Assembly (NCBI GenBank): GCA_028583605.1
Contig: CM053334.1
Coordinates: 23,088,226 to 23,152,225 of the forward strand
Direction of reading: 5' to 3'
Length of the DNA stretch: 64,000 nucleotides
Origin: Dastarcus helophoroides
Taxonomy: Eukaryota > Arthropoda > Insecta > Coleoptera > Bothrideridae
Shown here: piece after piece, positions 25,568 to 62,650 of the stretch
Layout: every line of letters starts with the position of its first letter
How positions within the stretch are numbered: the stretch's first letter is position 1
The notes under the pieces: generated by a model
What the model was told of the DNA's origin: nothing
The model's input: the letters and a program-made list of their open reading frames with translations, nothing else
Databases searched by the model: none
Position numbers and translations under genes: made by a program

Positions 25568-26847
25568 CCAGGTCATTCAATAAGTCTGTAGGATAAGTAA
25601 GAAAAAAACAAAATTTTGACAAAACTCGATTTTATTATTTAACATAGTTGCCTTCAAGGGCGATACAACGAGCTCAGCGATTTACCAACTTTTCGATACC
25701 ACTTTTATAGTACGATTTCCCTTTCGTCAAAAATGGCCTCAGTTTTAGCGATTACTTCATCATTGGACTTAAATTTTTTTCCTACAAACATTCTCTTGAG
25801 ATCAGAAAACAGGAAAACGTTGCTGGGTGCTAAATCTGGAGAATACGGTGGGTGGGTAAGCAATTCGAAGCTCAATTCATTCAATTTTGCCATTATTTTC
25901 GTGTCACCGTGACACGGTGCATTGTCTTGGTGAAACAACACTTTTTTCTTTTGCAAATGTGGCCGTTTCTTTGCGATTTCAGCCTTCAATAGATCCAAAA
26001 GTGCACAGTAGTAGTCTCTGTTGATGGTGGTTCCTTTTTGGAGATAGTCGATGAATATTACTCCATTCGCATCCCAAAATACAGAAGCCATCGCCTTACT
26101 GGCTGACTGTTGCGTCTTTGCTCGCTTTGGATTCGGTTCGTCGACTGCTGTCCACTCAGCTGACTGTCTTTTGAATTCTGGTGTGTAATAGTGAAGCCTT
26201 GTCTCATCCATTGTTACATATCGACGATAGAATTCCATTTTATTGCGGTTTAACAGCGCCAAACACTCCTCTGAAGCATCAATTCGTTGTTTTTGGTCGA
26301 CTGTGAGCTTATACGGCACCCACTTTGCACAGAGCGTTTGCATACCCAAATGTTCGTGTAAAATGGTAAAAACACTACCATCTGATATCTTTACAATGTC
26401 AGCTAGCTCGTACACCTTTAATTTGCGATCGTTCATAACCAATTTGTGGATTTTTTTGATGTTTTATGGAATAACAGCCTCATTTGGGCGTCCACTGCGC
26501 TCTGCATCATTTGTGCTGGCACGTCCACGTTTAAATTCATCAATCCACTTCTCTACCATTTGTCTCGATGGAGCAGAGTTCAGGTAATGTTGATCAAGCC
26601 ATTGTTTGGTTTTCACTGAATTATTTTTTCATCAAAAAGCATAGCTTTATCAAAACTCGAAATTCACTTTTTTTTCAATAACAAAAGTTGCTTTGCACAA
26701 AATGCTATAATTCACGAATCAATAGTCAGATTGCTGTTAAATTTATACGCGTATCGTTTGAAGATTAGTACTAAATAAAAATTATATGGAAAAAAAATCT
26801 AGTAACGCCATCTATGTGTCATCCTGTCGACTTTTTGAATGGACTGT
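25568..26847 (-). mobile_element. Mariner-family element, 1280 bp
   Basis: Inverted ends (ccaggtcattcaataagtc at 25568; the reverse complement of 26847 backwards gives acagtccattcaaaaagtc) are flanked by TA on both sides (25566-25567, 26848-26849). Length is typical for mariner. The sole gene is a broken transposase on the minus strand. The element sits inside a solo LTR. Confidence 0.9.
25705..26640 (-). pseudogene. Mariner transposase, inactivated
   Basis: Transposases of this family cut and paste the element using a D,D34D triad. Seen here, N- to C-terminal: a helix-turn-helix region (WLDQHYLNSAPSRQMVEKW, about 26480-26610), the WVP linker motif (KWVPYKLT), the first catalytic Asp in TMDET, the second in HQDNAPCH, then YSPDLAPS followed by Asn where the third catalytic Asp belongs, at the expected spacing. 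Breaks: a TAA stop in frame near 26461 (after NEAVIP, where relatives have Glu), a probable frameshift near the start, and a small deletion near 25710 that ends the frame early after FDEREIVL. The long open part (26442-25705) begins at TTG, not a real start. The substitution plus the stops make it non-functional. Confidence 0.85.
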
Positions 26848-29184: not shown

Positions 29185-29625
29185 GGGTCTAGCCGGATAA
29201 GTATGGCGAAGTGGCCCCCAAATGGAAACCTATGGTAATATGTTCAAAAATTTATCACCTCGGCATATGAACAAAATTTATGTATATTTGGGTTCTATAT
29301 TTCAAAGTGATTACGAGATATTAAAAAAATTGTCAATTTAGGAAGATTTTTTAATTTTTTATATCTTTTGAACTAAATAAGTTAGAAAGATGAGACTAAC
29401 GGCGTATTATAGCTAATATTTTAAAGTATATAATAGATTTTTTTTCACATTTTTTATTATTTCTAACCACTCCAAAAATTATTAAACAAAAATAATTTAT
29501 TTTTTTAATAGGTTTAACCGAGATACAATCACGAAATTAATATACATATGGTATAGTATCCATCAAGTACTATAACGTATAGAAAATTCACCGAATGAAA
29601 ATTGTTGCAACACTTAAAAAAATAA
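29185..29625 (+). repeat. Half copy of the GGGTCTAGCAGGATAA foldback
   Basis: Starts gggtctagccggataag and follows the left half of the complete foldbacks at 31427-32355 and 35106-36127 ('ccaaatgg', 'gaactaaataagtta', 'catcaagtac'). The inverted second half is missing. Confidence 0.65.
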
Positions 29626-30371
29626 GTTGTTCCTTCTAAATATTTTGACTCTTTAACCCTGAGCTTTTTCTTAAAAAACTCGATTACATTTCGAAATTTT
29701 GACCTAGATCTCAAATTTTCGTCTTTTATTTTCTCAAAATTTCTAAGCCCAGATTTCGACAGTTTTCTTTAAATTTCGAAACCTCTTTGGTTACACATTT
29801 CCTCAAAATTCTAAACTAAAATTCCGTTTTATTTTTTTTTTATTTTCGAATGTTCCTCAAAATTTCGCATCTTTTTCCAATGTAGAAATTCCTATGTAGA
29901 TCTTAAACATCTAGATATTTAAACCCGAAGGTAAAAGTTTTTCTAAAGAATTTAGCTTTTTCCATAAAAAATCTTCCTCATAATTTCCACTTTCAAAATC
30001 CCATCTTCAAAATGTTAGGAGTTCCTCAGTTTAAAAAATGCAACGTTTGAGTAGTTGAAAATTATGTTTACATTTTAAATACCTCAAAAATTGAAGGTGG
30101 AAATTCAAAATTTTTACATCAAAGTCCAGATTTGCATAATACATTGAAAAACTTTTCGAAAAATTCAAAATGTTAAGTACAAAGTCGAAATACTGGGGTA
30201 AAAGATAAATATTATAGATCTAAATTCTGAAATCCGGCAAAAAATTTCAATTTTTTGGAAAATTCGTAATTTTCTGTTGAAAATAAATAAATACTAAAAA
30301 TTAGGCAGTTCCAAACTGCTGCCAGAAGTAAAAACTCTTTAAATGTAATTAAAATTCCTATTCTTGTGAAC

Positions 30372-30452
30372 GATCATATAGCTCAGTGACTAAGACGACA
30401 GATTTTGTTTCATAGGTCTGATAAGTCTCGGGTTCAAATCCCGTAGTCATCA
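30372..30452 (+). tRNA. tRNA-like sequence, probably a pseudogene
   Basis: An A-box-like 'tagctcagtgac', a perfect B box 'ggttcaaatcc' with a 7-nt T loop and 4 of 5 T-stem pairs sit at tRNA spacing. The acceptor strands (gatcata / agtcatc) pair at only 5 of 7 positions. The anticodon region (cagat...ggtctg) gives a 12-nt loop, so no anticodon can be called. Its inverted counterpart is 37379-37461. It could be a decayed tRNA or a tRNA-derived SINE head. Confidence 0.4.
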
Positions 30453-31426
30453 ACGCGTTTTTTAATTCTATTTACGTCTTACTTCTATTTATAGAGTGCT
30501 ATTAATATTAGAGCATGTTGGTAACGGAAATTAGCATGATAATAACGCTATCCACAAGTTTCCCTCTATGTAAAATCCACTAGGTCCACTACGTCCACTG
30601 CGGGCTTAAAAAAATTTTCACTTTAAAAATCAAAGTCGGTACACGATAAAGAAAGTAATAAGTGCGATCGAGTGACATCAGCTAGTTTCTAAATAAAAAA
30701 TTACAGAAAAATTCAAGAGCAAAGTAAACTTCTCGTTAGAAAATCCTACTTTCAATAAATAGTTAATAAAATTAATAAAAACAGTAGAGTCCGTTGGTAC
30801 CGCGTAATGGTCACGCGTTATGGTAACACGAAGTTTACCTCCTATGCATGCAACTTGCATCATTACGCAACCCATAATTCACGTATTTATCCGAACGCGT
30901 GTGGTATGTGTGTTGTATAAATTGGTACAGCCTGGTACTGCCAATGTTCGGGGATTCACAATTCTTACGGTGCGCATTTTGGTGATATAATTCATCAATT
31001 ATATTCAATTTATTAAGTTATTTATCAGCAGTCGAGGTGTTCGTATAATAGGGATCAAGATGAGCATAAAGAGCGATTGACTTTCTTCCTCAGGTAATGT
31101 GCCAGGGACCGCTTTCATGTGGGAGAGTACAGCCCTTGGTGTGTTTACCAATTCATTAGTTTATTAGTCTTATGTTGATTATGTGCGGAGATTGTTGTTG
31201 TCTTTTGTGTTGTGTGTTTGAATTTTTTTCTTTGCACATTGGGCTTCAAGTTTCCACCAGTAGGCAATAATTTTGACATTTTGTATTCATGTTTCTTTAT
31301 ATTGATGTTTACTCACGGAATTTCGATGCTTCATTCCACACGTTAGACTAATATCTGAAAGTAATGGTAACATAATAGCTCTACTACTCCTTCTAGATGC
31401 TTGGGCTAAAGCTGCGTTGCGTAAAG

Positions 31427-32355
31427 GGTCTAGCAGGATAAATAAGTGGTCTCCAAATGGGAACCTACAGCAATATTTTTGGAAAGTTATCAGCTCGATA
31501 AATGAACAAAACTTAGGTGTATTTGGGCTCGATATTCCAAGGTCACTACGACATATTAAAAATTGTAATATGTCAATTTACAATTTAACAAGATTTCTTA
31601 AATTTCTTATATCGTTCGAACTAAATAAGTTAAAAAAATAAATTTAACGGCATATTATAGCTAATATTGTGAAGTATATTATATATTTTCTTCACATTTT
31701 TTTATTATTTCTAGCTTATCTCAAAAATTAATAGAAAGAATAATTTAATTTTTTTTAATAGTTTTATCCGAGATTTAATCACGAAATTATTATATGGTAT
31801 AGTACCCATCAAGTACTAGAACATATAAAAAAATACTAAATAAAAAGTTGAAGTTTTCACCCTGCAGAATATAACAAATTTTTGTTATTTTTGAGGTAAG
31901 ATTGTTTTTTTTTTGTGCAATTCGTATTTTAACTTTGTGTGATAAGGTTAATTACAGTTCAGAATGCATAGTACTCTTTAGATTTTCATTATTTTTGTTA
32001 AAGTAAATATTTTACAAATTTTAATTATCTTTTTTATTTGTTTTTACATTTTCGACAGACTTTTGTCGCGGACTAAGATCAACAAATAATTGCTATAAAA
32101 AATTCATAATATACTACGAAACATTAACTGAGAAATGCAATTAGTTTTATTTTTGTAACTTATGTAGATAAAAAAAGTTCAAAATTTTAAAAATATATAT
32201 TTTTTTTGAATATCTGATCACATTGAATTATCAAGCCTAAATTCACCTAAATTTTATTGATATTTTCGAGGTAATAATCTGATAATTTACCAAAAATTCT
32301 ATTATAGGTTCCCATTCAAGGTTCACTTCGCCCTACTTATCCTGCTACAAGATCC
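31427..32355. mobile_element. Foldback element, ~930 bp
   Basis: Starts GGTCTAGCAGGATAA and ends in the reverse complement of a close variant. The outer ~400 bp on each side are inverted copies ('atttgggctcgatattcc' on the left and its complement near 32220). Long arms with a short centre and no reading frame. A second complete copy is at 35106-36127 and a half copy at 29185-29625. Confidence 0.65.
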
Positions 32356-34292
32356 TTTGCTTGAAATTTAAAAATTAAAGTCGATATTATGGAAAAAATG
32401 TCTACTGAAATTTTAATTTAATTACCGACAATTTTAATGTCAAAATATTTTGTTTAAATTCTGAATTTAGAGAGGAAAAACTTAATCGTGAAAAAGACTC
32501 GAAATTTATGAAAACAAATTCAAATTATGACACGAAACTGAATAAAAACCAGAAAATTATTTAAAAAATTCTCAAATATATTTTCGTTTTCAAAAATTTG
32601 GAGTTTGAAGGTTGAATTTCGATAAAACCTCCAACTACCAATTATTTGAACTTGAAATTTAATTTTTTGGGAAAAGTTCAAAGTTGAAATTTTGAAATCG
32701 ATTATTACGTTTACCTAAAATTTAGAAACTTTTGTCGCAATTGGGACTGTTTTTCCAAAATCCCGATTTTATTGTCCAATCTTTTAAATTAAGAGTTCGA
32801 GAGAAAAAAAATTGTTTTGTTTCATTTAAACTTCTATCACAAAATTTTGAATTTAGACTTAAAATTTTTAAATAGGGAAATTCGAAAAACATTTAAATAT
32901 GCTTTAAAACCGAAGTCAAAATTTCGAAGTAAATTGTTACCATTAGAGAAAATATTTATTATAAAAATAATTTGAAATATTTAGTGTTTAATTAAAATTT
33001 GAGGCAACATTTTTGTCAATAATATACAGGTTGTAACAAATTCGCTTCTCACTAAAGGGATCTCAAAAACTGTAAGAGATACAGCATCGGTTAAATTAAG
33101 AATAAAGTTGCATAATTTGGCGGTCAGAAATATTCCATTGAGAAATCGAAAATATCTCTTGCTGTTCTTGAGATTTAAAAAAAAAAGTAAAATTTTGGAT
33201 TTTCGTCTTTATTATTTCTTGGCGTTATTTGAAGAGTAATTGAAAAACTGAAAACACTTCTTCATTGACGGTTCTTTATTCCTTCACAAGATGGCATCAG
33301 AGATAGACGTTTCGTCTTTTCGCTACCATCATCAAATTCGTTATTTTAAATGCGTACCCCTAATTTTTATTGCATCTTTATACAGCTTTTTAAATTCCGA
33401 TTTTATTAATGTATGTGGCTCAACGTTTCGTAACTTCAAACCATCATCAAGGAAAAAACACATTATTCTATATTAACGTTAGTGTATTATTTTTTATAAT
33501 TAAAAAGTAATTGGTGTTTATAACAAAGTTATAAAAATGCAATTAATTGGTAAGAAAAAATGAATGGCAAAATTAATAAACTTTAACAAAAAACAGCAGG
33601 CATATCCATAAAAAACTGACCACCAAAAATAATGACTAATAACTAGGAACAAAGCACTATGAATATTTAGAATAGCAAATAACAAATAAAACAATAGCTG
33701 TCACATTTAGTTTGTCATATTTTATTACATTCTGGTTAACTAGTATTCAAAGATACAAAATACATTTATCCGAAAAAGGTATTTTTTTCCTGATGATAAT
33801 TTACAAGGACGAAACGTTTAACCACATTCAAAATTTGATACGTCATTGAAGTCAGAGATTCGAAAACTACACAAAAATGCCATAAGAATTACAGGTCCGT
33901 ATTTAAAATAACGAACTTGATGATGGTAGAGAAAAGACGAAAACGTCTAATTAAAAAACTTATTATAGCTACCTTGTGAAGAATAAAAAATGTCAACGAA
34001 AAAGTGTTTTTAGTTTTTCAATTACTCTTCAAATAACACCAAGAAATAATAACAATGAAAATCCAAAATTTTACTTTTTTTTTAAAATCTCCCTTCTACG
34101 CAGTTCCATCTATCCATTAGCAATCCTAGTAAGATTTTTATTTGCTTCTGTCATATAAGATCGTAAGTAGAAATATTAAAATATAACCTTAAACTAAGAC
34201 ATTGTGTTGCAGGTCAAAAATGAACAAATATCAACGTATAAATGAGATTCTATAATGCACAGACCAATAGGTTTGAACATTTATTAGATTGG

Positions 34293-34357
34293 AAGTTTGG
34301 AAACCAAATACCGGTTTCGATCTTGTTAGATCTCGTCAGTTTGGTATATCCAACTCG
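34293..34357 (-). ncRNA. Hammerhead ribozyme, type I
   Basis: On the minus strand: CCAAA, then the CTGACGA box, helix II GATCT / AGATC with loop AACA, GAA, a very short helix III (ACCGGT), cleavage triplet GTA, then TTTGG closing helix I with CCAAA. Helix I extends outward (GGA with TCC) past an internal loop, as in natural type I hammerheads. All invariant core positions are present, so self-cleavage is plausible. Confidence 0.7.
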
Positions 34358-34671
34358 AATGCTGAATAAATGTTCCGACAAGTAAGTACTAAAACATTCA
34401 CAGGCGTCAAGCGAGTGACTCTTTAGTACTACCACCTATTGGTCCATAGAGAAACTATGGCCATTGCCAACAATGTCGTATGCAAAAAGAATGCAACCTA
34501 GACTACAAATTCATGCAGCCCTCCAGGCGGGTATAGTGAATCATAGGTAGCCTGAACTACCAACAGTTGAAACACTGCCACCTAGCGAAGCGGTTGCTCT
34601 CTAGGAGAGTTCCCAGAAGACAAGGATTCTATAATGCACAGACCAATAGGTTTGAACATTTATTAGATTCG

Positions 34672-34736
34672 AAGTTTGGAAACCAAATACCGGTTTCGAT
34701 CTTGTTAGATCTCGTCAGTTTGGTATATCCAACTCG
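34672..34736 (-). ncRNA. Hammerhead ribozyme, type I, second copy
   Basis: Same core, helices and GTA triplet as the copy 379 bp to the left. The two are in the same orientation, so a transcript could be cut into a unit-length 379-nt RNA. Confidence 0.7.
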
Positions 34737-34763
34737 AATGCTAATAAATGTTCCGACAAGTAA

Positions 34764-34925
34764 GTGGGCTACGTTAAAAAATGTCAACGAGAAGCGAATA
34801 AATTACTTAAAGATAACACTGACCTTGGGTTTGTAAACAAACTGCAAAGCAATCTAGCCTACTTTACAAAGTTTCAAGAGGACATTAGGCGGAAGTTGCA
34901 TGAAACACATATTTTACTTTTTTTC
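34764..34925 (+). pseudogene. Coding-like fragment, unknown
   Basis: An open stretch reads KKCQREANKLLKDNTD, then GFVNKLQSNLAYFTKFQED, with amphipathic, coiled-coil-like spacing and richer codon variety than its surroundings. It lies just beyond the second hammerhead copy, inside the 34092-34910 insertion, and runs out of the element. No domain recognised. It may be a remnant of the parent retroelement's N-terminal region, or chance. Confidence 0.25.
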
Positions 34926-35105: not shown

Positions 35106-36127
35106 GGGATCTTTTAGCAAGATAAACATTGTAAAGTGGTCCCTAAATGGGAATTTATAATGAAATTTTCGATAAACTAATCACCTCAAATTACCAATAA
35201 AATTTAGGTGCATTGAGCTCGACACTTCAATGTGCCCAGGAGGTATTAAAAAATTAGTCAACAGAAGATTTTTTAAATTGTTGGCAGTTTTTAACTAAAT
35301 TAGTTGAAAGATGAAATCAACGGCTTTTTTTAGCTAATGTTTCAAGGTATAATATGAGTGTTTTTCGTAATTTTTAGTTGGACATTATCCCTGTCAAAAA
35401 TTAATAGAAAATGTAAAAATAAATCAAAAAAAAAAATTAAATTTGTGAAATATTCACTTTAACAAAAATAATAAAATAGTAAAAAGTACTATGCATTCTA
35501 AATTTTATTTACCTTTATCACACTATGTTAAAATACGAATTGCACAAAAAAAACCATTTATTTTAAAAATAAAAAAAAGTTTGTTATATTCCAAAGCGTG
35601 AAAACTTCAACTTGATTTTTTTGGAAAGTCTTGTACCAATATTTATTCAGTGAATTTTCTATATGTTAGAGTACTGATGGGTACTATAGCATTTATTAAT
35701 TTTGTGATTGTTGCTCGGATAAAACTATTAAAAAAATTAAAAAATTCAAAAAAAAAAATTTAACTAATTCGCTCTTTCGTCGCTCATTAATTAAACATTT
35801 TCACTCGTCGATAAAAAATAATTTTACCGTCTTGTATAACAAATAACTATTTTTATTAATTTTTGAGGTAGCTAGAAATGATAAAGAAAATTGAAAAAAG
35901 TATACAATATATTCCGCAATATTAGCTGTTAAATTCATTTTTATAACTTATTTAGTTCAAAAGACAAAAAAAAATTTAAAATCTTCCTAAATTGACAATT
36001 TTTTTTAATATCTCTTAGTGATCTTGGAATAACGAGCCCAAATACACATAAATTCTGTTCATTTATCGAGGTGATAACTTTCCAAAAATATTGCTGTAGG
36101 AGGCCACTTATTTATCCTGCTAGACCC
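35106..36127. mobile_element. Foldback element, second complete copy
   Basis: Starts 'gggatcttttagcaagataa' and ends 'tttatcctgctagaccc', with long inverted arms like 31427-32355. It marks the inner edge of the right arm. Confidence 0.6.
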
Positions 36128-36561
36128 TTTACGTAACGCAGCTTTAGCCAAAGCATCTAGAAGGAGTAGTAGAGCTAGTTATCTTGCCATTACTTTCAGA
36201 TGTCAGCCTAACTTGTGAAATGAGGCATTGAAATTTATGAGTAAACATCAATATAAAGAAACATGAATACAAAATGTCAAAATTATTCCTAATGGTGGAA
36301 ACTTGGAGCACAATCTGAAAACAAAGAAAAATTCAGACATACAACAGAAAAGACAACAACACATTCCATGATCTCTGCATATAATTAACATATGACAAGT
36401 AGACTGATAAATTGATAAATTAAACAGCTACATCCTTAATTATAAGAAAATGATACCTGCCAATAAGAATTTATTGTTAAATAAATTATAAAATAAAGAA
36501 ATATTGCAAATAGAAAAATGGAAAACTTACCAATACATCTTCATGGCACTAAGATCATTGT

Positions 36562-36819
36562 TTACGCGCGCGTTGGCAATCGATAAGTGAAGGGATGATA
36601 GCAAAGGGGATGCAGTGTGAGCAGTTCTTTTATAGCCACCAGGCGACAAACTTCCATAAAAGAAATCGCAGTATATACATATCCCTTAAAGGTGCCCACC
36701 CCCTTTATTGAGGTTTTACCACACACCAAGGGCTGTACTCTCCTGCATGAAAGCGGTACCTGGCACATTAACAGAGAAAGAAAGTCGATCGCTCTCACGC
36801 TCATCTCGATCCCTATCAT
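36562..36819 (-). CDS. Unrecognised 85-residue frame in inverted-repeat arm
   Basis: A minus-strand frame from ATG encodes 85 residues with four Cys and a hydrophobic middle (VYTAISFMEVCRLVAI). Codon use and GC content are better than in the surrounding repeats. A TATA-like and initiator-like region lies upstream in the arm. In the other arm the equivalent start (near 31060) reads into a TGA after a few codons and the frame is lost, so if this was a gene only one arm keeps it open. No family recognised; it could be a first exon of the element or chance. Confidence 0.25.
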   Translation of the reverse strand: MIGIEMSVRAIDFLSLLMCQVPLSCRRVQPLVCGKTSIKGVGTFKGYVYTAISFMEVCRLVAIKELLTLHPLCYHPFTYRLPTRA

Positions 36820-37378
36820 CCGAACACCTTGACTGCCAATAAATTGAATATAACTGATAAATTACATCATCAAAATCCGCACCGTAAATTGTGCATTTTC
36901 GAGCACATGCAGTACCAGGCTGTACCAGCTTATACACACATCAACATGCCGCACTCACGAGTTCGGATAAATACCTGAATAACCCTTAATACGTGCATAG
37001 CAGGTAAACTTCGTGTTACCACCACGCGTGATCATTACGCGTTACCAACGTATTCTACTGTTTTTATCAATTTTATTAACTATTTCTTGAAAGCAGGATT
37101 TTCTAACGAGAAGTTTACTTTGCTCTTGAATTTTTCTGTGATTTTTTATTTAGAAACTAGCTGATGTCACTCAATCACACTTATTACTTTCTTTATCGTG
37201 TACCAACTTTGATTTTTAAGGTGACAATTTTTTTAGGCCCGTAGGTGGACGATTTTACATAGGGGGAAAATTGTGGTTAGCGTTATCATCATGCTAATTT
37301 CCTTTACCAACATGCTTTAATATTAATAACACTCTATAGATATGAGTAAGGACTGTGTAATAGAATTAAAAAACGCGT

Positions 37379-37461
37379 TGACGACTGCGGGATTTGAACC
37401 CGCGACTTGTCAGACCTATGAAACAAAATCTGTCGCCTTAATCACTGAAGCCACTAGGATC
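37379..37461 (-). tRNA. tRNA-like sequence, inverted counterpart
   Basis: On the minus strand: A-box-like 'tggcttcagtgattaaggc', a perfect T arm (GCGGG, loop TTCAAAT, CCCGC) and a B box. The 3' acceptor strand AGTCGTC pairs poorly with the 5' strand GATCCTA. The anticodon loop is oversized as in the 30372-30452 copy. Better preserved than that copy but still not a standard cloverleaf. Confidence 0.45.
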
Positions 37462-38222
37462 GTTCACAAGAGTAGGAAATTTAACTACATTTAAGGAGTT
37501 TTTACTTCTGGCAGCAGTTCGTTTTGTATTTATTTATTTTCAACAAAAATTACGAAATTCCCAAAAAATTCAAACTTTTTTCCCGACATTCAGGGTTTAG
37601 ATCTATAATATTTATCTTTTACCCCAATATTTCGACTTTGTGCTTAACATTTTGATTTTTTCGAAAAGTTTTTCACTGTATATTGCAAATCTGGACTCTA
37701 ATGTAAAAATTCCGAATTTCCACATTCAATTTTTGAGTTATTTAAAATCTAAACATAATTTTCAACTTATACTCAAACGTTGCATTTTTCAAAATGAAAA
37801 ACTCCTAAAATTTTAAAAATAAATTACTGGGATTTTAAAAGTGGACATTATGAGGAAGATTTATTTATGGAAAAAGCTGAATTCTTTAGAAAAACTTATA
37901 CTTTCGGGTTTAAATATCTAAATGTTCCAGATTAGATAATTTTTCAAGTTTTTACTTAGGAATTTTTAGGAAAAATGCGAACTTTTGAGGAACATTCGAA
38001 ATTGAAAAAAAAATAAAATGGGGTTTAGGTTTAGAATTTTGAGGGAAACTCGAAATTTGTAACCAAGAGGTTTCGAAATGTAAAGAAAACTGTCAAAATC
38101 TGAGCTTAGAAATTTTGAGAAAATAAAAGAGGAAAATTTGAGATCGAGGTCAAAATTTCGAAATGTAATCGAATTTTTAAAAAAAAGCTCAGGTTTAAAG
38201 AGTCAAAATACTTAGAAAGAAC

Positions 38223-39630: not shown

Positions 39631-39846
39631 CTAGGAAGACACAAAATTATTAAAACATCGATCCTGTATTCAATTGATGTATCGAAAAAGATATATCGAT
39701 ATCTTTCGTTACATCGATAAATTAATTCGATGTTCGATGTATCATATAAGTACAATACCATACAGCAGGACTTCTCGACCAGCGATACGAGCCTCTCATA
39801 TTTTGCCTGTTTTAAAATTCCTACTTTTTAAAACAAATTTTTACTT

Positions 39847-40195
39847 CTTCATGGTAGACCCTTATTGACCGGAAATATTATGTTTTTTTCAATTTATTTA
39901 ACATTTCTTCGGTCCAGTTTGGAAATATTTAAATTTTTATGGTTTGTTGACAATTTTCTAAACAATTTTTGAAATGCGACTACGTGATATTTAAATTTAT
40001 TGAAAACGTCACTTCAAGACAATTCACAAATTAAGAGGTTAGTTTATTTTACATAGAATAGGAATAATGAAAAATAGGAGATCAAAAATTAGATATGGAA
40101 AAAATTAAATTTTTTTTTTTTAGAAAATTGTCAACAAACCATAAAAATTTAAATATTTCCAAACTGGGCCGAAGAAATGTTAAATAAATTGAAAA
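39847..40195. mobile_element. Snap-back insertion with ~17-bp flanking repeat
   Basis: Flanked by near copies of 'aaaacaaatttttactt' (39829-39846 and 40196-40212). Internal ~75-80 bp inverted arms ('caatttatttaacatttctt...ttgttgacaattttct') at 39883-39963 and 40118-40198. The start 'cttcatggtagaccctta' is shared with the insertion at 60939-61450, which carries a hammerhead. Non-coding. Confidence 0.65.
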
Positions 40196-41832
40196 AAACA
40201 AAATTTTTACTTGTTTCAAATTTTCGACATTTTAAAAATTTGGACTCTTTTAAAATTCGACATTACTTAATAAAAAAAATTTCCTTTTTAAAACTTCCGT
40301 TTTTTATGAAACTTCGAAGATTGCAACTATTTACAAAAATTTCAGTTTTTCAGAATTACATTTTTTTTGAAATTGTCGAGGTTTTTGAAAAGTTTACATT
40401 TTTTCAAGTTTCTATTCCAGAATTACGATTCTTTTTCCGGAATTTGCATTTTTCCTCAAATTTCAAAGTTTTTTAAAATTTTAACCACTTTAAAATGCCG
40501 ACTTTAACTTTTGAAATGATGAATCTTTTCGGAAGTTTCGACCTTTTTTGAAATTTCAGAAATTTCAATTTTTTCGAAAACCTCGATTTGTTTTTGAAAA
40601 TCTGAACTTTATTGATAATGTCGATATATTTTTTTTTTCAAATTTTCGATCGTTTTTTTTAATTCTCGATTTTTTCATCGATTTTTTGGCAAATTTCGAT
40701 GTTTTCAAACCTTTGACAGTCGGTACTTTTTTTTTAAACCTTCGTTTTTTTAAAAATTTTAAATGTTGGTATTAAAATTTGGAATTTTTTCAAAATTTTG
40801 ACATATTTTCAGATATACTTATTTATAAAATTTTAAGTTTTTTTAAAAGTGTTTTAAAATTATTAACCATTTTTAAAATTGATCTATTTTTGCAAAATTT
40901 GACTTTTTCGAAAAACCTTTATCCAAAACATTTGTTAAAACATTTTTATAATTTCGAGTATTTTTGATAAGTCCTCCATTTTTCAATATTTTGCTTTTAT
41001 AAATTGATACAAATTTTTTTCACAATTTCAACCCATTTTTTTTTTCAAAATTTGTAACTTTTTTAAAAAATTCGACATTTCTCAACATTTTTCTTTAAAA
41101 TTTCTACTTTTTTTCAAATTGTTACTTTTTCGGAAAATTGGGCCTTTTTAAAAATTGCGACATTTTTTGGGCTTTTTCAAAATGTTGAAAATTTTTCTGT
41201 TTTGTGCTTTTTAAATATTTATATTGTTTAAATTGCATGCTCTTTTAAGACTCAATTTTGTGGTAAATTTTTATTTGTTCAACATTTCACTTTTTTTGAC
41301 ATTTTTTACTGCTTCAATGTTTCGACTTTTTTAAATATTAAATACGATTTTTTTCTAAAACTCCCATATTTTTGAAAATTAAATTTTTTGAAAATTTTTA
41401 CTTTTTTAAAATGCTGGATCTTTTCGTAACCTTCGGCCTTTTTTTGAAATTTCAGGAATTTCAATTTTTTCGAAAAACTCGTTTTATTTTTGAAAATCTC
41501 AATTGATAATTTCGATATTTCTTTTTCAAATTTTCGATCGCTTTTTTCAATCTCGATTTTTTTATCGATTTTTTGGCAAATTTCGATTTTTTCAAACCTT
41601 TGACACTCGGTACTTTTTTTAAACCTTCGTTTTTTTGAAAATTTTAAATGTTCTTATTAAAATTTGGAAATTTTTAAAAATTTTGACATATTTTCAAATT
41701 TTTACACTTATTTATTAAATTTTAGCTTTTTTTTAAATGTCTTTTAAAATTTTTAACCATTTCTAAAATTTATCTATTTTTGCAAAATTTGACTTTTTCG
41801 AAAAACCAAAATATTTCTTGAAACATTTTTAT

Positions 41833-45800: not shown

Positions 45801-46120
45801 ATATTTTCAGATACAAGCGAAACGAGAAAATGGAAACTTTTGAAAGTTAACATTTTAAAAAATGACGAAATTTTGAAATTTTCATCGAAAATTTGGATTT
45901 AAATAAATCACTTTCAAAAAATAGTCTTAAATTTAAAAAATATTCCAAATTACGAAGAAATGTCAAGATTTAGAAAAAAAGGAGAATTTTCAGTGAAATC
46001 TCCTAAAAACCTAAATTTTTGGAAAGCCCAAATTTCAAAATGAGTCAAAATGATCAAACATTTGAAAATTTTTGTTAGTTAAAACTTTGAGAAAAGCTTA
46101 AAAAATCACAAACATCAAAA
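42860..46120. repeat. Higher-order tandem units of ~570 and ~510 bp
   Basis: 'cgaaaacaaaagtttaaat' recurs near 43233, 43806 and 44373 (about 570-bp steps). 'gagaattttcagtgaaatc' variants recur near 44967, 45473 and 45985 (about 510-bp steps). The units are highly similar, pointing to recent tandem amplification inside the A-rich half. Confidence 0.7.
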
Positions 46121-46320
46121 AAAATTCATATGCAAGAAGAATGCAACCTAGACGACAAATTCATGCAGCCCTCCAGGCGTGTATAGTGAATCATAGGTAG
46201 CTGAACTAGCAACAGTTGAAACACTGCCACCTAGCGAAGCGGTTGCTCTCTGGGAGAGTTCCCAGAAGACAAGGATTCTATAAAGCACAGACCAATAGGT
46301 TTGAACATTTATTAGATTCG

Positions 46321-46385
46321 AAGTTTGAAAACCAAATACCGGTTTCGATCTTGTTAGATCTCGTCAGTTTGGTATATCCAACTCG
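46321..46385 (-). ncRNA. Hammerhead ribozyme, type I
   Basis: Same helices, CTGACGA and GAAA core, and GTA triplet as the 34293-34357 copy. Helix I CCAAA / TTTGG intact. Confidence 0.65.
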
Positions 46386-46393
46386 TTAGCATT

Positions 46394-46458
46394 CGAGTTG
46401 GATATACCAAACTGACGAGATCTAACAAGATCGAAACCGGTAATTGGTTTTCAAACTT
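46394..46458 (+). ncRNA. Hammerhead ribozyme, mirror copy
   Basis: Core and helix II identical to 46321-46385. Helix I has one mismatch (CCAAA with ATTGG). The two ribozymes point away from a shared junction. Confidence 0.6.
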
Positions 46459-47422
46459 CGAATCTAATAAATGGTCAAACCTATTGGTCTGTGCTTTATA
46501 GAAAAAAATTCAATTTAAAAGAATGTCGAAGTTTTCAAAAAAGTGAAGATTAAAAAAAAACGTCAATATGTTGAAAAAAAATTGACATTATGAAAAAGGT
46601 TCGAATTTTCGAAGTAAATAAAAAACTTTAAAATGGAAAAACATTTTTGAAAATAATCCAAAATTTTAACAAGAATCGATTTAAAAAAAATTGATATTTT
46701 TAGATACTAGCGAAACGAGAGTGGAGATTTTTGAAAGTCAACATTTTAAGAAATAAAGAAATTAAGAAATTTCGAAACTTTTCAAACTTTTTATCGAAAA
46801 TCAGGATTTCAAAAAATCAAACTTTTGAAAAATAATGACAGCATTTTGAAAAGATACTGTTAAAAGTCGACCCTTTCAAAAAATTCAGATTCAGAATAAA
46901 ATACAGAAATTTTCAAAAAAACTTTTAGAAAAGTTGACATTTTGAAAAAGAATTCAAATTAAAAAAAACAGGTAATCAACAATCGTGAACAAATGTAGAG
47001 ATTTAAAAAAGTAAAACATGTTTAGTCAAATATTCAAAAAAGCCAACATTTTTAAAGAGCTCAAATATTGAAGAGAAGTGAAAATTATCAAAAAATTCTT
47101 AACTTCCAGAAAAAAAATAGGTAATCAAAATTTTGAACAAATGTGAAGATTTAAAAAAGTAAAACATTTTCAGTCAAATATTCAAAAAAAATCCGAAATT
47201 TTTGAAGAGGCCAAATATTGAGGAAAATGCGAAAATTATCAAAAAATTCTAAACTTCCAAAAAAAATAGAAATGAAGAGTAGACATGTTGAGAAACATTA
47301 ACGACCTTTTTCCAAAGTTTAACTTTAAATTGAATTGTTTTTTGAATTCGACTTTTTTCGAAAATTGTATTCAAAATATCAAAAAAAAATAATATAAATT
47401 GAGATTCCCATCAAGCTAATAA

Positions 47423-47606
47423 CACAGGCCCACAAAAAAAAAAAAGTGGTGTGTGCTGGGTGTCGGACCCACATAGTCCGGCGTATTTTTTTCCGCTGAA
47501 CACGAATCTGTAGTTTAAATTGGGGGTCAAACTGCTAAAAGTGAAGAAAAACCAAAAAAAAAGATAAAAATCACGATCTCGTATTTTTTTCTGTATGATA
47601 TTATCA
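47423..47606 (+). repeat. Left terminal inverted repeat
   Basis: Pairs with 49849-50040. Identical blocks include GTGGTGTGTGCTGGGTGTCG and 'aaatcacgatctcgtat', with a few substitutions and length changes in A runs. Confidence 0.9.
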
Positions 47607-48015
47607 TCTTGCAGTTTCTACTTGTTTCTCTCTGTAATATCCAACCGTAATGTGCAAATACGTTAATTCACTACTTATTGTGTCTTATTTAAGTGTCACA
47701 TAGATGATATTTTGTTTTTGACAAAAAATAAGGAAATGGTTAACTAAATCGGTACATTTACCGGCAGAAACCTGCTACTCCGGAATGATTGGACTACGAT
47801 GACAACTGCCCTTTATCGGGATGTGTAGAATGATTCGCTAGTCAACATTTCGGCGTATCGAAGCCAGCAAAGGCGCGCTGTTTTGCAGGGAAGCGCTAGA
47901 ATATGAGAATGATGCCGTAGTGTGTCCGACGACGAGTTGACATTGTCCTTGTCAAAGTCGGAAAGCCCTCATACTTAGGCCTAGGTATTCTAGCGTGCGG
48001 GGTTTATTTATTTTC

Positions 48016-49845
48016 ATGGATTCTTCTACTGAAAATTTTGCTGGAACTTCTAGTACTCGTGGCAATCACAAATGTACTGGAAATCCCAATGCTTTTTGCT
48101 ACGTTTGTGCAAAGTACATAGGGATAAAAAATACAAAGAAACTAACAGATCGTTTCGTGACTTTGTATGAAAAGTGCTTCAATATGAAAGTTTCCCTCGA
48201 TCTCAAAAATTGGATACCCAATTTTGTTTGTGGCTCATGTTATAATATGATCAATAGATTTGAAAAGCACCAGGTCAAGGCGAATCTTAAATTTAAAACT
48301 CCAGCGATATGGAAAAAGCCACTTGATGCAAGTAATTGTTACTTTTGCACAACAAATGTCAACACTGTGGGCCGAATGCATAAGGATAAAATTTCTTATC
48401 CTTCTCTGTCAAGTGTTCAACAACCAGTTGCAAACTTCATAGAAGGTTTAGAAGATGACACGTCACAAGACAGTCTGACTAGTGGATTAGACACAATGGA
48501 AGTCGACGTCGATCCTGAAAATTCAGCTTTTATTGATAAAGAGTTTGATACTAGTAGTGAAAACATTTCTAGCGAATCTGAGGAAGAAGAGTTTTCGAGC
48601 AATGAAGAATACAGACCTATTGGTGAAGATCGGAAGCCGGAAAAATACGATCAAAAACATCTGAATGATTTATTCAGAGAGGCTAAACTCTCAAAAGAAG
48701 CGGCTGAAATATTGGCTTCGAATATGAAAAAGAGAAATCTATTGACAAAAGGTACTAAAGTTTCGTTTTATCGGAATCGAGAAGAAGCCTTCCGTAAATA
48801 TTTTGAAAAAAATGAAGATTTACTCTATTGCACTGATGTAAAAGGACTTATCGATGAATTTAAGCCAAATTTATATGAGCCAGAAAATTGGCGGTTATTC
48901 ATTGATTCGTCTCAACAGAGTCTTAAGGCAGTCCTTCTCCACAACACCAACAAATTCGCTCCTCTACCTTTAACCCACTCCACTGTACTTAAAGAAGAGT
49001 ATTCAAACCTCGAAGTTGTCCTAAAGAAAATAAATTACGAAGAACATAAGTGGCAAGTATGTGGTGATTTAAAAATTTTGTCCATGATCCTTGGACAGCA
49101 ATCTGGATTCACAAAATATCCATGCTATTTGTGTATGTTTGACAGTAGGGATCGAAAAAATCACTACGTAAAAAAAGAATGGCCTTTACGATCTTCATTT
49201 AAGGTTGGATCACATAATATAATAAAGAAACCGCTTGTTGATCCAGCCAAAATTCTCATTCCTCCTCTTCATATAAAACTTGGCTTAATTAAACAGTATG
49301 TCAAAGCTCTTGATAAAAATGGTGAATGTTTTACGTACCTGCGTACTATGTTTAAAAAAAAATCTGATGCTAAACTAAGGGAAGGCATCTTCGATGGACC
49401 GGAAATCCGAAAGTTATTCAAAGATGAAGGGTTTGTTGCAGTCATGGATGACCAAGAAAAGGCATCGTGGTTAAGTTTCAAGGAAGTGTGTACCAAATTT
49501 TTAGGCAATACCAAGGATGCTGATTACAAAAGCATTGTGACAAATATGATAAGAAATTTTCAGCATTCAGGTTGCCTAATGAATTTGAAAATGCACTTCC
49601 TTGATTCGCATCTTGACCAATTCCCGGAGAATAACGGAGACTTCAGTGAAGAGCAAGGAGAAAGATTTCACCAAGATCTCAAAGAGTTTGAACGGCGGTT
49701 TCAGGGACAGTGGGGAATAAATATGTTTGCAGATTACTGTTGGATGCTACACAGAGAAACTCAAGAAAAAGGAACAAAACGTAGCAGAAATCCACTTCAC
49801 AGGTCATTTGAAGAAAAAAGGGTCAGGAAAAGACGAAAATTATAA
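48016..49845 (+). CDS. Putative transposase-like protein, 609 aa
   Basis: The only long intact gene in the window, inside a transposon, so most likely the protein that moves it. I chose ATG 48016; the frame is open 21 bp further, but from GTG. Seen: N-terminal Cys pairs C28/C31 and C72/C75, spaced like a ZAD-type or DNA-binding zinc finger; a third pair C108/C111; an acidic Ser-rich linker (about 143-205); then an alpha/beta region with LFIDSS (D297), QVCGDLK (D351) and PCYLC (C370/C373); then EEQGERFHQDL (E546, E549, H552) and FADYCWML; and a basic tail EEKRVRKRRKL, a likely nuclear signal. D297, D351 and E546 or E549 are candidates for a DDE-type RNase H-fold triad; that is inference. Similar uncharacterised proteins are, as far as I know, common in insect and cnidarian genomes. 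No introns or stops. Confidence 0.8.
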   Translation: MDSSTENFAGTSSTRGNHKCTGNPNAFCYVCAKYIGIKNTKKLTDRFVTLYEKCFNMKVSLDLKNWIPNFVCGSCYNMINRFEKHQVKANLKFKTPAIWKKPLDASNCYFCTTNVNTVGRMHKDKISYPSLSSVQQPVANFIEGLEDDTSQDSLTSGLDTMEVDVDPENSAFIDKEFDTSSENISSESEEEEFSSNEEYRPIGEDRKPEKYDQKHLNDLFREAKLSKEAAEILASNMKKRNLLTKGTKVSFYRNREEAFRKYFEKNEDLLYCTDVKGLIDEFKPNLYEPENWRLFIDSSQQSLKAVLLHNTNKFAPLPLTHSTVLKEEYSNLEVVLKKINYEEHKWQVCGDLKILSMILGQQSGFTKYPCYLCMFDSRDRKNHYVKKEWPLRSSFKVGSHNIIKKPLVDPAKILIPPLHIKLGLIKQYVKALDKNGECFTYLRTMFKKKSDAKLREGIFDGPEIRKLFKDEGFVAVMDDQEKASWLSFKEVCTKFLGNTKDADYKSIVTNMIRNFQHSGCLMNLKMHFLDSHLDQFPENNGDFSEEQGERFHQDLKEFERRFQGQWGINMFADYCWMLHRETQEKGTKRSRNPLHRSFEEKRVRKRRKL

Positions 49846-49848
49846 GAA

Positions 49849-50040
49849 TGATAATATCAAACAGAAAAAAATACGAGATCGTGATTTTTATCGGTTTTTT
49901 TGGTTTTTTTGGTTTTTCTCTACTTTTAGCAGTTTGACCCCCAATTTAGACTACAGATTCGTGATCAGCGGGAAAAAATACGCCGGACTATGTGGGTCCG
50001 ACACCCAGCACACACCACTTTTTTTTTTTGTGGGCCTGTG
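49849..50040 (-). repeat. Right terminal inverted repeat
   Basis: Reverse complement of 47423-47606, beginning right after the stop codon. A triplicated 'ggttttttt' run makes it 8 bp longer. Confidence 0.9.
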
Positions 50041-50043
50041 TAA

Positions 50044-51065
50044 TTTTTAATTTTTCCTTTATGCTTTCTTTGTAAAACGGCGCGTGCTGGTTGTATTTGT
50101 GGCGCATATATTTCTCGTATCAAGGGCATTCCCCAGAAATAAAACCGAATTATAAATGTTACATGAATTAATAACATACCGGCTGTTTTCCTCAGTCTTG
50201 CGTTGGGACTGTACTTTCGTAGCTGCAGGATAAATAGGAAATTAAAAATTCAGCATTCAAAGTGGAAAGAATCTTTTGTTCAACAGAAATAACAACATTA
50301 TCCAAACAAATTACTCCATTTATTAGATAAACTGCGGGCTTATATATTTTTTAAAACTAATTACATCTGATAATTTCGTCTTTGAATGTGCGCCCGATCC
50401 TCTTCGCTAATACTTTTATATCCGTTGAAGCGTTGCAAAAAATAATTTTCCACCCTTTGTGGAAGAGAATTTTTGATTTTATCTCATCTGTTTGCCCTCC
50501 TTTGCTATATTTTAATTTTATTAGCTGTCATTAGTTCTTTGTTCAACAAAGATTTAATATTTCGCGCATACATCTTGACGTCCATTCAAGCGGAGAGGGT
50601 TGCGACAAAGAAAACAAAAAAAGGGCCCTTACGAGGAGCGTTCGCAAAGTTTGTGTACGTGATACTTACTTCGCAGGTCAATAATGATAGATGTCTTAAA
50701 AATCATTAATTTGAACATTTTCGGTTTCGTAACTTAAAAGGTAAAAGGGAACTTTTGTGCCCGTCCTCTATGTGTCCATTTGTCTGTCAGTTTAGGGCCA
50801 CAGAGGTTCTTCTCGAAAATTATATAATGAAAAAATTTGAAATTTGATATCTTGGGTAAGGGCGCGCACATAATATCCCCAGATAAAGATTTTAAAACAT
50901 GTAATTTAATGTGGGTTAGTTAGCACCCAAAAAAGCTTGTAATTAATATAATCATGTATCATTTGAAAGGGCTACCCCTAAGGATTCCAAAAATATTTTT
51001 GTTTATGATTTTTGGTTCAGAATTTAAAGAATTTTCTATGACACGTGTTACGCTTAATTAATTTG
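50044..51065. other. Unique-looking AT-rich DNA, no gene
   Basis: No array repeats. A frame of 78 codons at 50473-50709 starts hydrophobic (ILSHLFALLCYILILLAVI) but has no other support. A stretch near 50600-50900 is GC-richer and unassigned. Confidence 0.45.
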
Positions 51066-57000: not shown

Positions 57001-57475
57001 AAAAACATTGAAATTTGAGGAAAAATGCAAATTCTGGAAAAAGAATCGTAAATCTGGAATAGAATCTTGAAAAAAAGTAAACTTTTTAAAAAACTCGACA
57101 TTTAACAAAAAATTGTAATTCTGAAAAACTGAAATTCTTGTAAATAGTTGCAATCTTCAAAGTTTCATAAAAAACTGAAGTTTTAAAAAGGAAAATGTTT
57201 TTATTCAGTAATGTCGAATTTTAAAAAAGTCTAAATTTTTAAAATGTCGAAAATTTGAAATAAGTAAAAATTTGTTTTAAAAAGTAGGAATTTTAAAACA
57301 GGGAAATTATGAGACGCTCGTCTCGCTGGTCGAGAAATCCGGCTGAATGGTATTGTATTTATATGATACATCGAATATCGAATAAATTTACTGATTTATC
57401 GAAACATATCGATATACTTTTTTTGATACATCAATTAAATACAGCATCGATGTTTTAAAAATTTTGTGCAGCCCT
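51066..57475 (+). mobile_element. Long strand-switching element, 6.4 kb
   Basis: Left end GGGATGCACACGATACG with palindromic 'tgtatcgata' motifs; right end 'acatcga...' to AAAATTTTGTGCAGCCCTA. The terminal ~10 bp are inverted (GGGATGCACA / TGTGCAGCCC), like hAT-type ends, but I find no 8-bp duplication. Inside, T-rich repeats (51300-54250) flip to A-rich (54260-57310). A ~128-bp tandem duplication lies near 52054-52310. No coding capacity. An inverted relative is 39632-47270; partial ones end at 9383 and 24476. Confidence 0.6.
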
Positions 57476-59579: not shown

Positions 59580-60930
59580 CAGAAAAAACAAAGACTTTGA
59601 AAAAAATTCAGGATTTTTGAAAATAACGTTACAAATTACAAAAAAATGTTGAACTTTCTAGGAAACATTCCAAATTTCCGAAAGAAGGTCCAATTTTTAG
59701 AGGAAAATTTAAAAAGTTAAAATTTTTAATAAAACATATTGAAAATAAAAACCTAACCTTTCTTAAAAACTCAAGGAAAGTGCAAAATTCAAAAAAAAAT
59801 CAAAATTTTAAAAAAATTTAATGTTGTGAAAAGACGCAATTTTCAAAAAAAAAATCCAACTCGGAGAAAGAAAAATCGTAAGATTCAGAAGCATTGTTCT
59901 CAAAATTTAAAATTCTGTAAAGATGTTGAATTTAGAAAAAATCTTTTTCCAGGAATCCCCAAAATTATTTTTCGCAACAACAAATTACAAAAAAAAATTG
60001 AAATTTCTAGGAAACATTCCAAATTTCCAAAAGAAGTTCTAATTTTAAGAGGAAAATTTAAAAAATTGAAATTTTCATTAAATCATATTGAAAATAAAAA
60101 CCTCACCTTTCTCAAAAACTCGAGAAATGTGCAAAATTCAAAGAAAAATCATAATTTTCAAAAATCTAATTTTGTGAAAAGACGCAATTTTCAAAAAAAA
60201 ATCCAACTCTGAGAAAGAAAAATCGCAAGATTCAAAAACATTGTTCTCTCAAAATTTATAATTCAGTAAAGATGTTGAATCTACAAAAAATCTTTTTCTC
60301 GAAATCCCTAAAAATATTTTTCGCAACAACAAATTACAAAAAAATATTGAAATTTCTAGGAAACATTCCAAATTTCCAAAAAAAGTTCTAATTTTAAGAG
60401 GAAAATTTAAAAAATTGAAATTTTCATTAAATCATATTGAAAATAAATACCTCACCTTTGTCAAAAACTCGAGAAATGTGCAAAATTAAAAAAAAATCAA
60501 AATTTTCAAAAATCTAATTTTGTGAAAAAACGCAATTTTCAACAAAAAGTCCAACTTTGAGAAAAAAAAATCGCAAGATTCAAAAACATTTTTCTTAAAA
60601 TTTAAAATTCAGTAAAGATGTTGAATTTACAAAAGATCTTTTTGTCGAAATCCTCAAAAATATTTTTCGCAACAACAAATTACAAAAAAATATTGGGATT
60701 TCTAGGAAACATTCCAAATTTCCAAAAGAATGTTTAATTTTAAGAGGAAAATTTAAAAAACTGAAATTTTCAATAAATCATATTGAAAATAAAAACCTTA
60801 CCTTTCTCAAAAACTTCAGAAATTTGCAAATTCAAAAATAAAAATTTTCAAAATTTGTTTTTTGTGGAAAGACGCAATTTTCAAAAAAAAGTCCAACTTT
60901 GAGAAAAAAAAATCGCAAGATTCACGAACC
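59580..60930 (+). repeat. Tandem repeat, ~348-bp unit, about four copies
   Basis: 'gaaaataaaaacct' recurs at 59741, 60091, 60439 (variant) and 60785, with steps of 346-350 bp. Each unit also has 'tttttcgcaacaacaaatta' and 'aggaaacattccaaatttcc'. A partial unit resumes after the insertion, at 61451-61550. Confidence 0.85.
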
Positions 60931-60938
60931 TTATTCTT

Positions 60939-61450
60939 CATGGTACACCCTTATCGGGCTTCAAATATTTAAATTTTTAACACAGTAAATTTTTAACACA
61001 GTAAATTGATTATGAAACGTCTATTCATGTTAAAATTTCTTTATTTTTCTTTTTTTATAATTTATATATTTTTTTTATTTTTAAGTATTTCTTCCTCATT
61101 GTTCCCCTTCCATGTTATGCACTGCTGACGAGCTCAAAGGAGAGCGAAACATCGATGTCCAGTGCTACAACCTTTTTTATGTATTTTTTTATATTTTCCT
61201 AATTTATCAAAAATACAAAATTTTTATTTTTTCCATATCCAATTTTTGGTCTCCTATTTTTCATTATTCCTATTCTATGTAAAATAAACTAACCTCTTAA
61301 TTTTTGAACTGTCATGAAGTGACGTTTTCAATAAATTTAAATATCACGTAGTCGCATTTCAAAAACTGTTTAGAAAATTGTCAACAAACCATAAAAATTT
61401 AAATATTTCCAAACTGGGTCGAAGAAATGTTAAATAAATTGAAAAAAAAC
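60939..61450. mobile_element. Hammerhead-bearing insertion with 19-bp flanking repeat
   Basis: It splits the ~348-bp tandem repeat between 'attcacgaaccttattctt' (60920-60938) and 'attcaagaaccttgttctt' (61451-61469), a 19-bp duplication with two differences. The right half (about 61190-61450) is the complement of the 39847-40195 insertion's body. The left 30 bp match that element's outer end in the opposite sense, so this too is head-to-head, with the ribozyme between the arms. Confidence 0.75.
61119..61165 (+). ncRNA. Complete hammerhead ribozyme, type I
   Basis: All parts are readable. Helix I is GCACTG (61119-61124) with CAGTGC (61160-61165), and beyond a small internal loop GTT pairs with AAC. 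The box is CTGACGA (61125-61131). Helix II is GCTC / GAGC with loop AAAGGA. GAA is followed by helix III ACA / TGT with loop TCGA. The cleavage triplet is GTC, cut expected after C61159. No invariant position is missing. Very short helix III and an open helix I are what Penelope-like hammerheads show. Confidence 0.85.
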
Positions 61451-62650
61451 ATTCAAGAACCTTGTTCTTAAAATTTAAAATTCAGTAAAGATGTTAAATT
61501 TACAAGAAATCTTTTTCCCGAAATCCCCAAAAATATGTTTCGCAACAACAGAAAAGTGAACCTTTTCAGAACCATAAAACCATTTGATCTAAAAGTCGTA
61601 GTTTATTGAAACAGACAAATATTCAAGAAAATGACAAAATTTTGAAACAAATAAACCATATTTGAAAAAGTCCAAAAAGTAGGATTTTGAAAACAAAATC
61701 GAAATATCGAAAAGCACAAATTTTGAGAAGCAGGCGAATTTTAGGTAAAAGACTATTTTAGAAAAATTCAAAATTCTAAAAAAAAAGACGAATTTACCAA
61801 CAAAAAGAAAAAATTTATTGAAATATTAAATATTGGATATTGAAATAAAAATCGAAATTTCCTGAAAAAGGCAAATTTTAGGAAACCAGTCAAAATTTCT
61901 AAAAAAATCAGAATTTAAAAGATCGAAATCCTTAGTAAATGTCCAAAAAAATACGGAATTTGAAAAAAAAATTAGAGAAAAGTTTGAAATGGACAAAAAA
62001 TTGTCCGAAGAAAGTCAAATTAAAAATAAAGTCAAAAAAATAGTCGAAACCTTGAGAAAAAGCCGATTTTGTAAGAGAAATTTTGCAAAAAAGATCTTAC
62101 TTTTGAGAAAAAGCATTTAACCTTAGTAAAACTTCGAAATTCAAAAAAAAGGTAAATTTTAAGAGAAAAATCAAATATTTATTTTCTCTGGACTCTCTGG
62201 AAGAGTCAGAGGAACTCAGGCTCCCTACCTTGCCTCAACAGGCGTCAGAAAATGTCAAATATTGTGAAAACACATCGAAATTTTGACAAACAAGTTGAAA
62301 CCACCAGAAATTTGAATTAAAAAGGAGTTGAAATTCACAAAGAAATTTTTATCCTTTCACAAACATTTTAAATTTCTAAAAAATATAACTTTTTGTCAAA
62401 AGATTGACCAGACTTCGAAAAAACACAAATTGTTTATAAACAAGCGAAAATTTTCAGAATCAAATAACGGCGTAGTTTTCAGGAAAAGTCAAACTTCGAG
62501 AAATGACGAAATTTCGGAAAAAAAACGAAGAAGTTTTAAATTCAAAATTTTGACAGTCATCTTTCATAAAAGAAGGGTAAATTTTATGAATAAATGCATA
62601 ATTTTAAATAAAAAAGTCAAATTTTGTAAAAAAATATACAAAATTTGGGA

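Follow-up and report, generated by a model that had tools for sequence, protein, structure and literature searches.

A type I hammerhead ribozyme sequence in a 512-bp retro-insertion of Dastarcus helophoroides, and a second copy whose ends resemble those of Penelope-like elements

The stretch of Dastarcus helophoroides DNA analysed here (the window, 64,000 nucleotides) carries a 512-bp insertion that interrupts an array of ~349-bp units (59631-60924). The insertion contains a hammerhead ribozyme sequence, referred to below as HH1. The following features were recorded:

60920..60938, + strand: left target-site duplication (TSD) of the 512-bp insertion, 17/19 identical to the right copy
60939..61450, + strand: 512-bp retro-insertion with hammerhead (flank comparison, copy alignment)
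60939..60970, - strand: left end of the insertion, read as an inverted tail (60939-60954 clear, remainder gapped)
61119..61165, + strand: HH1, type I hammerhead ribozyme, predicted cleavage after C61159 (direct reading, descriptor, Rfam HH9)
61149..61158, + strand: palindromic helix III ACATCGATGT, compatible with a double (dimeric) hammerhead (folding, two-strand MFE)
61201..61450, + strand: 3' (pseudo-LTR-like) part of the insertion, ending AAATTGAAAAAAAAC; 61201-61448 is 94% identical to 39883-40129 inverted
61451..61469, + strand: right TSD, 17/19 identical to the left copy

The length of the insertion and its 19-bp target duplication, both proposed in the original prediction, were confirmed, and the retro-origin suggested there stands up. 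When the flanks were joined, they aligned with three array units as a normal stretch of the array. As the whole window is 71.5% A+T, the AT-rich target carries little weight. The window ORF list contains no ORF of at least 90 aa within the insertion, and a tRNA scan found none. The predicted cut after C61159 lies 291 nt before the right end.

Type I hammerheads possess CUGANGA and GAA, an A-U pair closing helix III, H17, and three helices of which helix I is open. By direct reading, descriptor and fold, 61119-61165 has these core features, in the order GCACTG-CTGACGA-GCTC-AAAGGA-GAGC-GAA-ACATCGATGT-C-CAGTGC. Helix I is formed by GCACTG (61119-61124) and CAGTGC (61160-61165) with 6/6 pairs, and helix II by GCTC (61132-61135) and GAGC (61142-61145) around the loop AAAGGA. 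The core segments CTGACGA and GAA occupy 61125-61131 and 61146-61148, and the GTC triplet ends at C61159. The claim that every invariant core position and the GTC triplet are present was thus borne out by direct reading. Helix III (61149-61158) is a perfect 10-nt palindrome; a monomer would therefore have 3 bp around a UCGA loop, and a pair of molecules 10 bp. Three perfectly paired helices had been claimed; helices I and II are paired, but for the monomer the prediction lacks the palindromic helix III. As a sequence with its core anatomy, the hammerhead is real.

A covariance-model search had been suggested as a check. The full length of Rfam RF02275 (Hammerhead_HH9), an amniote hammerhead, matched 61119-61165 at a relaxed threshold with 39.1 bits and an E-value of 4e-8 when 1.2 kb was searched and of 2.1e-6 for the whole window. 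The score lies below the gathering score of 52, which is why the default Rfam search came back empty. HH1 shares with HH9 the core, helix II and the helix I internal loop letters UUA/UAC, whereas its outer helix I is unpaired. The loop had been described as suited to a tertiary contact; its letters are indeed HH9-like, but the helix closing it has just 3 bp and 4/5 of the outer HH9 pairs are gapped or non-standard, so that the description was overstated. A strict hammerhead descriptor, run over the two strands of the window, gave 61119-61165 as its single match. Its helix thresholds (at least 4/3/3) were looser than the actual site (6/4/4), and at these thresholds 100 first-order Markov simulated windows gave 5 matches in total. 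One copy of the HH1 hammerhead was found in its family.

Folding of the monomer did not favor the ribozyme structure. The MFE of 61119-61165 lacks helix III, the pairs of which have a probability of 0.01, and the hammerhead fold reaches -11.3 kcal/mol compared with an MFE of -14.5. The folding energy is ordinary (z = -0.33; 67/200 shuffles fold equally well). The two-strand MFE, on the other hand, is the classical double hammerhead, at -40.3 kcal/mol compared with 2 x -14.5. The gain over two monomers (-11.3 kcal/mol) was equalled by 32/200 shuffles, and dimer stability was dropped as evidence on account of this ordinary gain. The argument for a dimer is consequently one of structure and not of energy. 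As modeled, HH1 may cleave as a dimer.

A second copy of the element, overlooked in the original prediction and without a hammerhead match in the whole-window Rfam scan (39850-40200), lies at 40 kb:

39835-39849 / 40201-40215, unstranded: TSD of the second copy, 15 bp, 14/15 identical, shiftable by one base
39850..40200, unstranded: second copy, hammerhead-less, composed of an inverted arm (39850-40129) and a direct arm (40119-40200)
57259..57278 (about), - strand: natural empty site for the second copy, located in a paralogous segment (segment alignment)

The empty site is provided by a pair of paralogous inverted duplicate segments, 39640-41829 with the insertion and 57468-55658 without it. 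Both arms of copy 2, one inverted and one direct, derive from the 3' end of the element, and both 3' ends face the target. The direct arm corresponds to the first insertion at 98.75% identity (61369-61448 against 40119-40198).

The left ends of both copies start with CATGGTASACCCTTAT and are identical at 15/16 letters (60939-60954 and 39850-39865). A pattern was derived from these two ends, and its two exact matches are therefore by construction; it has 1 further match in the window with 3 mismatches, where 0.17 are expected at up to 3. On the right, the direct arm of the first insertion stops at the C of ..AAATTGAAAAAAAC and that of copy 2 one A later. The outermost 32 bp of the inverted arm of copy 2 (39850-39881) reach past this stop, so that its left end, in RNA sense, comprises the inverted 3' end (..AAATTGAAAAAAAC) and a further 32 nt. 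Since the 32 nt occur only beyond the inverted 3' end, copy 2 has a tail on its inverted arm and none on its direct arm. In the first insertion the tail is clear over 16 bp (15/16) and loose, with gaps, over the next ~16. No inverted 3' sequence follows this left end; a comparison of the left part with the inverted right part gave just 17 bp. A plain 5' end is possible on these grounds; the left end is nevertheless more probably an inverted arm little longer than the tail. A short frame that runs over the 3' end into the tail was set aside, because a difference of one base in an A run interrupts it.

In their ends the two copies, and copy 2 in particular, are similar to Penelope-like elements (PLEs), a class of retrotransposons that is known but little understood, and the pointer to PLEs in the original prediction was a good one. 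In the portion of PMC3846280 that deals with insert structure, the typical Penelope insert has an inverted pseudo-LTR at its 5' end, with an optional 31-bp tail on it; the main text makes no mention of hammerheads. Copy 2 has such an inverted arm, and the first insertion at most part of the tail. A tail of ~30-40 bp on the inverted arm is likewise characteristic of PLEs; it measures 32 bp in copy 2 and is clear over the outer 16 bp only in the first insertion, which lowers our confidence in a PLE origin. As far as the consulted parts of the two papers go, TSDs and the inverted left arm (copy 2) are shared with Poseidon of Anolis (PMC11167929) and A. vaga Penelope (PMC3846280), as is the tail of ~31-32 bp. 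The TSDs, both of which have empty sites, are 19 bp (17/19) and 15 bp (14/15) long, compared with 8-10 bp in the rotifer examples of PMC3846280.

The hammerhead differs from those reported for PLEs. According to the relevant section of PMC7761336, PLE hammerheads are minimal and lack helix III or loop contacts; this is usual, not obligatory. Helix III here comprises 10 nt in HH1, as a palindrome, and 6 nt in a second hammerhead family in the window (below). Moreover, when 10 of the 38 ORFs listed for the window were scanned with Pfam, no RT or GIY-YIG domain was found. PLE membership is unproved, given that an RT/EN gene could not be linked and that the hammerhead exceeds the minimal form of PLEs.

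PMC11167929 offers a mechanistic parallel. There, a purified PLE protein both cleaves and extends the two strands of AT-rich DNA, and two internal reverse-transcription start sites account for the PLE tail in vitro. The Anolis locus has its type I hammerhead close to where reverse transcription starts, as may be the case here, with the difference that its cut lies 26 bp and the start 111-118 bp into the ORF, whereas the cut of HH1 is 291 nt from the right end. Cleavage in Anolis required protein, mutating the hammerhead left insertion in vitro unaffected, and no read terminated at the position of the cut. That cleavage contributes to mobility is therefore unproven.

With moderate confidence we regard the 512-bp insertion as a 5'-truncated, non-coding copy of a PLE consisting of its pseudo-LTR part, or as a short derivative moved by a PLE enzyme. 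The RNA of such an element would read along the + strand, with the hammerhead cutting 291 nt short of its right end. During target-primed reverse transcription both DNA ends at the target were probably extended. Two neighboring start sites on the RNA would give the right end at ..AAATTGAAAAAAAC and the left, inverted end ~32 nt further on, leaving the tail. The inverted arm is long in copy 2 and would scarcely extend beyond the tail in the first insertion. Transcripts cut by the hammerhead after C61159 would be read-through or tandem ones, and the palindrome in helix III would suit dimeric action; the PLE enzyme, the priming at two ends, dimeric cleavage and a role in transcript processing are putative parts of the scheme.

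A narrower version is offered tentatively: PLE machinery inserted a non-autonomous element whose hammerhead is near-canonical and dimer-ready, and the two ends of this element record priming on both strands of the target, at the pair of start sites known in vitro. The excerpts of PMC7229834 and PMC7761336 concerned with mobility regard PLEs as the probable, though unproven, agents that move hammerhead RNAs, or retrozymes, in animals. If true, the narrower version would provide genomic evidence for this mobilization. The hypothesis becomes testable in a single genome through the two copies, which have exact empty sites and of which one bears PLE-like ends and the other a fuller hammerhead.

The Rfam scan of the whole window returned 13 rows up to E 0.5, including five of HH9, namely HH1 and four members of the second family, which the original prediction had overlooked:

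34665..34736, - strand: family-2 hammerhead match, HH9 34.4 bits, E 6.9e-5
34286..34357, - strand: family-2 hammerhead match, tandem to the preceding one at 379 bp, HH9 33.4 bits, E 1.5e-4
46314..46385, - strand: family-2 hammerhead match, arm of a head-to-head pair, HH9 33.2 bits, E 1.7e-4
46394..46465, + strand: family-2 hammerhead match, other arm, first helix I pair mismatched, HH9 28.3 bits, E 0.0061
46129..46501, unstranded: family-2 373-bp insertion with the head-to-head pair and an A-rich 11-bp TSD AAAAAAATTCA (46118-46128 / 46502-46512)

Family 2 has the core CTGACGA, helix II GATC/GATC, a helix III of 6 nt (ACCGGT) and A as H17. The tandem units 34246-34387 and 34625-34765 are 379 bp apart, a retrozyme-like spacing, and lie within an insertion of ~820 bp with a T-rich repeat of ~20 bp at its ends, as judged by the inverted paralogue at 33 kb. 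For 4/4 members the single-strand MFE was not the hammerhead (hammerhead fold -6.1 to -0.1, MFE -16.4 to -26.5). A double hammerhead was rejected for this family: the two-strand MFE differed in 4/4, and the gain was equalled by 140, 198, 142 and 144 of 200 shuffles. A covariance model of all five sequences found no sixth hammerhead in the window (next match E 1.5). This model lends no independent support, because it includes the sequences on which it was trained and has the structure of the RNAalifold consensus and not of the hammerhead fold. A protein search with the ORF at 34540-34836, antisense to a family-2 hammerhead, gave 2 candidates and 0 at E 0.01. An Rfam MIR7533 match at 46344-46435 probably stems from the head-to-head inverted repeat, with which it overlaps.

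Could the insertion instead be a metazoan non-LTR retrozyme, a non-autonomous hammerhead RNA that was circularized and reverse-transcribed in trans by a PLE or other non-LTR enzyme, here as a single partial unit? We consider this unlikely, although several properties agree with it. The retrozymes in the pertinent part of PMC7229834 are likewise short, low in GC and non-coding with a type I hammerhead; the insert, too, is of low GC and lists no ORF of the length noted above. Their TSDs are stated to exceed the 4 bp found in plant retrozymes, as here. The HH1 hammerhead is also fuller than described in the PLE accounts consulted. The spacing of 379 bp at 34 kb falls inside the 170-400 nt given there between retrozyme hammerheads; this tandem pair, however, belongs to family 2, and the first insertion has one hammerhead and no tandem unit. 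The tail and the inverted arm of copy 2 are PLE features, which the same part of PMC7229834 does not describe for retrozymes.

Less probable still is a mover other than a PLE, either a SINE-like or other non-LTR element with the fixed 5' end CATGGTASACCC, or a fold-back or MITE-like element bearing a hammerhead. Both left ends open with the same letters (in a pattern derived from these very ends), the inverted ends of copy 2 are alike over ~80 bp at 98.75%, and the first insertion has no long inverted arm. In copy 2, nevertheless, the same letters run into the inverted 3' end, which a plain 5' end does not explain, and target duplications as long as 15-19 bp are at odds with a DNA transposon. 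That the hammerhead is a chance or dead motif seems very improbable. Its score below the HH9 gathering value, the helix III absent from the predicted monomer, the ordinary z of -0.33 and the one copy of its family point that way, but an E-value of 2.1e-6 in the full window, the complete core and helices, the location in a retro-insertion and the second hammerhead family in the window speak against it. A PLE or PLE-moved derivative is the preferred origin.

The family had been called unlike known ones. This holds only for its sequence, since no exact match was seen in viral and prokaryote collections, but in kind it resembles PLE inserts. The exact hammerhead patterns gave 0 matches in the viral and prokaryote contig collections and blastn of the 512-bp insertion gave none against phages, collections not expected to hold animal repeats. 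Among insects, a satellite hammerhead of cave crickets is described in the part of PMC2837043 consulted.

Other repeats occur in the window. Large inverted duplicates at 29496-31746 and 35608-38222, 81-84% identical, flank the 33-35 kb repeats, and a Mariner-type transposase ORF (Pfam Transposase_1, DDE_3) lies on the minus strand at 25705-26463. The segment 47418-50045 looks like a DNA transposon from its sequence. It has inverted repeats of ~190 bp (47418-47607 / 49848-50045, 91%), the ends of which share ACACAGGCCCAC, and a 634-aa zf-AD-like ORF (47941-49845; Pfam 24.2 bits, below the cut-off of 28). In a search with 605 aa of this ORF, just two of the best 120 of 1114 proteins carry a species name, and these come from the ants Cyphomyrmex costatus and Lasius platythorax, which makes an insect source likely.
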